Shown: positions 11,979-13,140 of the stretch, piece by piece
Layout: each line of letters starts with the position of its first letter
How positions within the stretch are numbered: the first letter of the stretch is position 1
DNA from: Methanosarcina sp.
GTDB taxonomy: Archaea; Halobacteriota; Methanosarcinia; Methanosarcinales; Methanosarcinaceae
Assembly (NCBI GenBank): GCA_017883485.1
Contig: JADGNM010000025.1
Location: 1 to 13,140 of the forward strand
Direction: 5' to 3'
Length of the DNA: 13,140 nucleotides
The notes under the pieces: model-generated
The model's input: only the letters and a program-made list of their open reading frames with translations
Told to the model about the DNA's origin: nothing
The model's database searches: none
Position numbers and translations under genes: made by a program

Positions 11979-13140
<1,162 letters not shown>

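Follow-up and report, generated by a model that had tools for sequence, protein, structure and literature searches.

Probable recent inactivation of the pyrrolysyl-tRNA synthetase gene pylS, as part of a loss of the pyrrolysine and methylamine trait, in a Methanosarcina lineage

The described system closest to the locus reported here is the archaeal PylRS of the PylSn-PylSc fusion type (NF007083/PRK09537) of Methanosarcina, with which it shares its sequence, its domain order and its place near mtbA and rfc. In contrast to that system, the gene studied here carries two in-frame stop codons, pylBCD are gone from beside it and pylT was not found. In the split synthetase of bacteria, PylSn and PylSc are separate; the first stop of the present gene falls at the same domain boundary, but the catalytic part is itself cut by a TAA. 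An in-frame TAG is also common to pylS as found here and to the amber methylamine methyltransferase genes mtmB, mtbB and mttB. Whereas nearly all full-length matches to these three genes in the genus carry one, none of the 19 relatives aligned has the TAG seen here in pylS. According to a 2010 review (PMC2933860), the pyl operon lay next to the monomethylamine operon in every Methanosarcina species examined. Several losses of pyrrolysine have been proposed among euryarchaeal lineages (PMC3941956), and in a gut clade of the family the pyrrolysine pathway is present in almost all, but not all, genomes (PMC11362671). In the non-subscription literature searched, no description of a pylS pseudogene or of pyrrolysine loss within Methanosarcina was recognised.

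The stretch of DNA analysed (the window) makes up contig 148 in full (13140 bases), which belongs to a genome (G000) of 2.83 Mb in 453 contigs that is 81.67% complete. It was compared with 29 relatives of the same genus, yielding a set of 30 Methanosarcina genomes. In the window, rfc is followed after 53 bases by mtbA and, after another 108 bases, by pylS. The relevant features are listed below, with the island of relative G015 as reference; the names mtmP, mtmC and ramA in that island are those we presume to apply.

9825..10850, plus strand: rfc (replication factor C small subunit 2), intact; NF009067, 443.5 bits
10851..10903, no strand: deletion junction between rfc and mtbA; G015 has about 5.7 kb there (mtmP, mtmB, mtmC)
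10904..11870, minus strand: mtbA pseudogene in two pieces in different frames; NF041608 matches to both, and tblastn
11871..11978, no strand: deletion junction between mtbA and pylS; G015 has about 6.9 kb there (a 238-aa gene, ramA, pylD, pylC, pylB)
11979..13140, minus strand: pylS pseudogene, its 5′ end cut by the contig end; NCBIfam PRK09537, TIGR03912 and TIGR02367, and alignment
12491-12489, minus strand: second in-frame stop of pylS, TAA; direct reading and alignment to 19 relatives
12971-12969, minus strand: in-frame TAG of pylS, at the N-domain/linker boundary (alignment column 92); direct reading

Homology to archaeal PylRS extends over the whole of the gene present in the window. The three pieces delimited by the stops cover positions 37-90, 93-255 and 257-425 of the 425-position profile, the first 36 positions of which lie beyond the contig end, where about 35 codons of the 5′ end are absent from the window. 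The piece before the TAG was recognised by NCBIfam as the PylS N-domain (TIGR03912, 83 bits against a cut-off of 51.15) and both pieces after it were assigned to PylS. Instead of a single open frame running from the N-domain through the linker to the catalytic core, the gene thus has a TAG and a TAA in frame. A sequence-only reading had proposed an amber codon inside pylS at the N-domain/linker boundary, a GTG directly behind it and a second stop. Direct reading of the minus strand bore out all of these: the TAG occupies 12969..12971, the GTG lies immediately 3′ of it at 12968-12966, and the TAA follows at 12491-12489. When the upstream flank of G012 (3451 bases) was used as a query for the missing 5′ end of pylS, its matches were limited to 62 bases within pylS and a weak one on contig 303 (40 of 68 candidates scored).

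Column 92 is variable among the 19 relatives, with serine in 14 (all encoded by AGT or AGC), asparagine in three, isoleucine in one and arginine in one; neither TAG nor TCG occurs there in any of them. The earlier suggestion that a single C-to-A change in a TCG created the amber codon therefore finds no support. No codon found among the relatives can be turned into TAG by one change, and from AGC this would require three substitutions or else an insertion paired with a deletion; the aligned sequence around the TAG keeps the reading frame. The TAA, in contrast, replaces a conserved serine of the catalytic domain, present in 19/19 relatives (TCA in 18, TCT in one), and can be derived from the commoner of these codons, TCA, by one C-to-A substitution. 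We take this residue to be Ser285 in M. mazei numbering.

An amber codon that sits in a pyl gene, at a linker position where relatives vary, and whose flanking sequence keeps the frame might be decoded as pyrrolysine, so that production of PylS would depend on PylS itself. We see practically no likelihood in this autoregulatory arrangement, which the sequence-only reading had entertained. The codon is private to this gene among the 20 compared, the adjoining mtbA is broken too, pylBCD are missing from their usual place, and the assembled genome yielded no pylT match and nothing above the family cut-offs for pylB, pylC and pylD. Moreover, TAA is not read by tRNA-Pyl. A ribosome passing the TAG would be stopped after 159 codons, short of a full product. 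With its own genes not found and the TAA blocking the way, decoding could not rescue pylS. Nor do we attach any appreciable probability to a split gene of the bacterial kind, also raised earlier, in which an N-domain protein would end at the TAG and a catalytic protein start from the GTG. The position of the TAG at the domain boundary and the GTG right after it invite such a reading, but the TAA divides the catalytic domain: the frame starting at the GTG, 159 codons long, has only positions 1-69 of the 242-position catalytic profile, and positions 71-242 come after the TAA, so that no open frame following the break has the domain whole. There is, besides, no tRNA-Pyl match in the assembled genome. 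The remaining reading, loss of function, is the one we favour and is supported by the genes around pylS.

Of these, mtbA is disrupted as well. Its two pieces match residues 1-86 and about 104-338 of 339 (1-86 and 105-338 by tblastn), 17 or 18 codons being gone between them as the result of a deletion of ~50 bases and a frameshift. In G015, the corresponding region reads rfc, mtmP, mtmB (with a TAG), mtmC, mtbA, the 238-aa gene, ramA, pylD, pylC, pylB, pylS, pylT. Judged against this order, the window has lost one block on either side of mtbA; at the second junction, the 5′ flank of mtbA is recognisable up to 11917 and the 3′ flank of pylS from about 11970. Both rfc and secD, which adjoin the broken genes, are intact, and rfc was matched in 30/30 genomes of the genus. 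As a conserved neighbour, it fixes the position of the lost island. Further along the window, two short proteins on the minus strand (1902-2306 and 2914-3354) match solely to a response-regulator receiver domain.

Irregularities of the island were also seen in other genomes. In G012, where pylS, pylB, pylC and pylD are open, the island seems trimmed, with just a short stretch resembling the end of ramA between pylD and mtmC (L043:13517-13636; 62.5%, residues 501-540). In G019 (ERenArc_MAG2), the matches to pylB, pylC and ramA are each split over more than one piece (L042:6448-11090), owing to either read errors or decay. Near rfc, G011 and G009 have an interrupted or incomplete mtmP (L145:1-770, L144:3-638).

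Sequencing or assembly errors could have produced both stops in a gene that is intact in the living organism, and the fragmentation of the assembly (453 contigs) and the proximity of the TAG to the contig end (about 170 bases) speak for such an origin. We nevertheless regard it as improbable. The exact 155-aa fragment that follows the TAA (starting at its first ATG) is the head of a cluster, built at 90% identity, of three member sequences and nine contigs, the longest of 13270 bases (13 proteins passed among 92 candidates). The exact 159-aa fragment starting at the GTG heads a cluster of eight member sequences and one contig of 1430 bases (nine proteins passed among 134 candidates). Since neither length is that of the window, at least one other contig stands behind each cluster, and assembly error is unlikely for this reason. 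The disabling lesions are thus present in more than one contig, although the listing is silent on samples and on whether all nine contigs carry the identical sequence, and the contigs are possibly not independent. A search with the whole gene passed 285 proteins among 8000 candidates scored; among the best 120 of the 285, no near-identical intact PylS protein was found, the highest identity being 82% (P0014). Over the last 155 residues, the partial protein P0002 reaches 94% identity and has serine where the TAA stands; as it differs elsewhere, it is a relative and not the same gene. Finally, large deletions and the break in mtbA are not base-call errors, and the adjoining rfc and secD are intact.

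The remainder of the pyrrolysine and methylamine trait was sought in the same 81.67%-complete genome, where pylT, mtmB, mttB and mtbB had no match and pylB, pylC and pylD gave nothing above the family cut-offs; weak hits to the latter three also arise in control genomes from outside Methanosarcina. The assembly, from which about 18% of the genome is missing, thus encodes neither a recognisable tRNA-Pyl nor PylBCD. Given this completeness, and with pylT normally lying just past the contig end, absence of the genes is not proven, and their absence from the unassembled 18% too is something we infer. Single absences are weak evidence, as pyl-bearing genomes also miss single genes of the trait: of the 22 genus genomes searched for pylT, 16 had a match, and one of the six misses (G020) does carry pylS, while G004, G016 and G018 have pyl genes yet no mtmB match and G018 lacks an mtbB match as well. 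The argument draws on the absences taken together and on the local deletions.

The same incompleteness leaves room for a working pyrrolysine system in the unassembled 18%, of which the present pylS would be a redundant relic, all the more as pylT and the 5′ end of pylS fall beyond the contig end. We hold this to be very improbable. PylS was matched in 26/30 genomes of the genus, with exactly one copy in 25 of the 26; several separate loci (pyl, mtmB, mtbB and mttB) would all have to be missing; and two probable sister genomes, one of them 92% complete, are also without matches. The four genomes with no PylS match are G009 (75% complete), G010 (92%), G011 (60%) and G017 (73%). G009 and G011 retain fragments of methylamine genes, and PylS absence there may come from gaps.

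The one genome with PylS in more than one piece, G020 (L107; by coordinates probably UBA11020), was examined as a possible second broken pylS and rejected: its single gene looks duplicated because two pieces whose ends overlap flank a run of N, at about 10179-10229, a scaffolding artefact. The same genome has a long MtmB homologue (G020:C149:24266-25582; 458-aa frame, 295 bits) devoid of an in-frame TAG, a non-pyrrolysine relative. G005 has two copies of pylT close together (C43:24442-24513 and 24640-24711), both 100% identical to the query.

What the sequence-only reading had called the simpler view, loss of function, is upheld by the second stop, the disrupted mtbA, both block deletions and the lack of matches to the other pyl and methylamine genes in the assembled genome. 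On this comparative genomic evidence, the window very probably carries a recently inactivated pylS, one step in the loss, by a single Methanosarcina lineage, of the pyrrolysine and methylamine trait.

Whether this loss was single or separate from that in other genomes was considered from the relationships of G000. In a tree of rfc from the 30 genomes, it grouped with G010 and G017 (bootstrap 89, SH-aLRT 83), with G012 next (100 and 96, respectively). In a tree of rfc and secD from 24 of the 30, the clade of G000, G010, G017 and G012 was firm (SH-aLRT 99.7, bootstrap 100), the grouping of G000 with G010 and G017 weak (SH-aLRT 69.7, bootstrap 82) and a pairing of G000 with G012 not rejected (AU p 0.28). 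G010 and G017 are thus probable sister genomes. Both have rfc in place (L143 and L061, respectively), and in both, searches for pyl genes, mtmB, mtbB, mttB and a close MtbA gave no match or none above cut-off. G010 keeps the order rfc-secD-secF, and the 12 other proteins of the G015 island and its flanks all had no match within 20 kb around its rfc (E 1e-4); in G017 (73% complete), neither MtbA nor its paralogues were matched. With two probable sister genomes devoid of detectable pyl genes, the trait seems to be disappearing within Methanosarcina, and pyrrolysine loss may be characteristic of a clade. In the pylS tree, the intact proteins P0014 and P0017 group with G000 (99). It is conceivable, though we would put it at somewhat under an even chance, that code contraction has been caught midway and has occurred more than once in this one genus, with separate losses in the G000 lineage, which keeps remnants and a new TAG in pylS, and in the G010/G017 lineage, of which G010 retains nothing of the island next to rfc, while pylS is intact in the nearest relatives represented by protein sequences.

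A shift in the use of TAG as terminator after the loss was also looked for among frames of at least 150 aa, by crude calling. TAG ended 7/101 frames in G000, 9/90 in the pyl-less G010 and 3/114 in the pyl-bearing G012, and 3/41, 5/28, 2/14 and 2/13 in smaller samples from the pyl-bearing G006, G001, G015 and G021. On these numbers, no such shift is shown.

The decay of pylS is slight, suggesting that its inactivation is recent. Past the TAA, 160 of 169 residues are identical to the nearest intact protein. With either G012 or G019 as sister, the G000 branch of pylS has a dN of 0.087-0.097 and a dN/dS of 0.14-0.22, compared with a dN/dS of 0.09-0.16 on the same branch in rfc and secD and of 0.10-0.19 on the sister pylS branches; these ranges overlap and dN/dS of G012 rfc reaches 0.35, indicating noise in the ratios. 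If G012 is taken as sister, dN of pylS exceeds that of the G012 branch (0.037-0.046) by a factor of 1.9 to 2.6, rfc and secD being near parity (0.9 to 1.5). With G019, the factor is about 3, but rfc and secD are also faster, by about 1.5 to 3 times, so that part of the pylS excess reflects a fast branch and the signal of relaxation is weak. For the C-terminal part of mtbA, dN is 0.075-0.084 in G000 and 0.015-0.024 on the G019 branch. When the nearest intact protein, P0014, was taken as sister, the G000 branch of pylS was 1.3 times longer (0.122 vs 0.094). At columns on which all other sequences agree, G000 has 14 changes, the TAA and one at the contig end among them, whereas none of the 19 others has more than five such changes; addition of three database proteins brings the numbers to nine and at most five. 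Pairwise dN hinted at uneven decay on the two sides of the TAA, which might have marked a retained C-terminal fragment. This reading was rejected, as the counts of unique residues before and after the TAA, 15:5 in G000 and 40:20 in the 19 others (Fisher p 0.58), do not support it.

These observations may be ordered into a tentative sequence of events. Use of methylamines would have been abandoned in the lineage of G000, with loss of growth on these substrates, and mtbA would have broken; the mtm genes and the ramA-pylDCB block would have been deleted. Deletion of pylBCD would have left PylS without a substrate or a job and pylS free to decay, and the gene would then have gained its TAG and TAA, TAG presumably now being an ordinary stop. 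A lineage living on methanol, acetate or hydrogen could lose the trait freely. In M. acetivorans, where loss of the Pyl trait has likewise been described in Methanosarcina, it costs only growth on methylamines (PMC2933860), which makes such a loss tolerable; the present case would be its natural counterpart, arrived at by stepwise decay. The existence of lineages that do not use methylamines would also fit with Methanosarcinales bins from Stordalen Mire, reported to have genes for methylated oxygen compounds only (PMC10805028).

The case is one of natural code contraction and calls for no new mechanism. It offers a snapshot of the reversal to a pyrrolysine-free code, in which the genes for methylamine use and pyrrolysine biosynthesis are gone, as far as the assembled genome goes, and the synthetase lingers as a fresh pseudogene. 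Methylamine use and the reading of TAG as pyrrolysine, then, need not be taken for granted in every Methanosarcina, a caution that bears on gene calling and on models of wetland methane.
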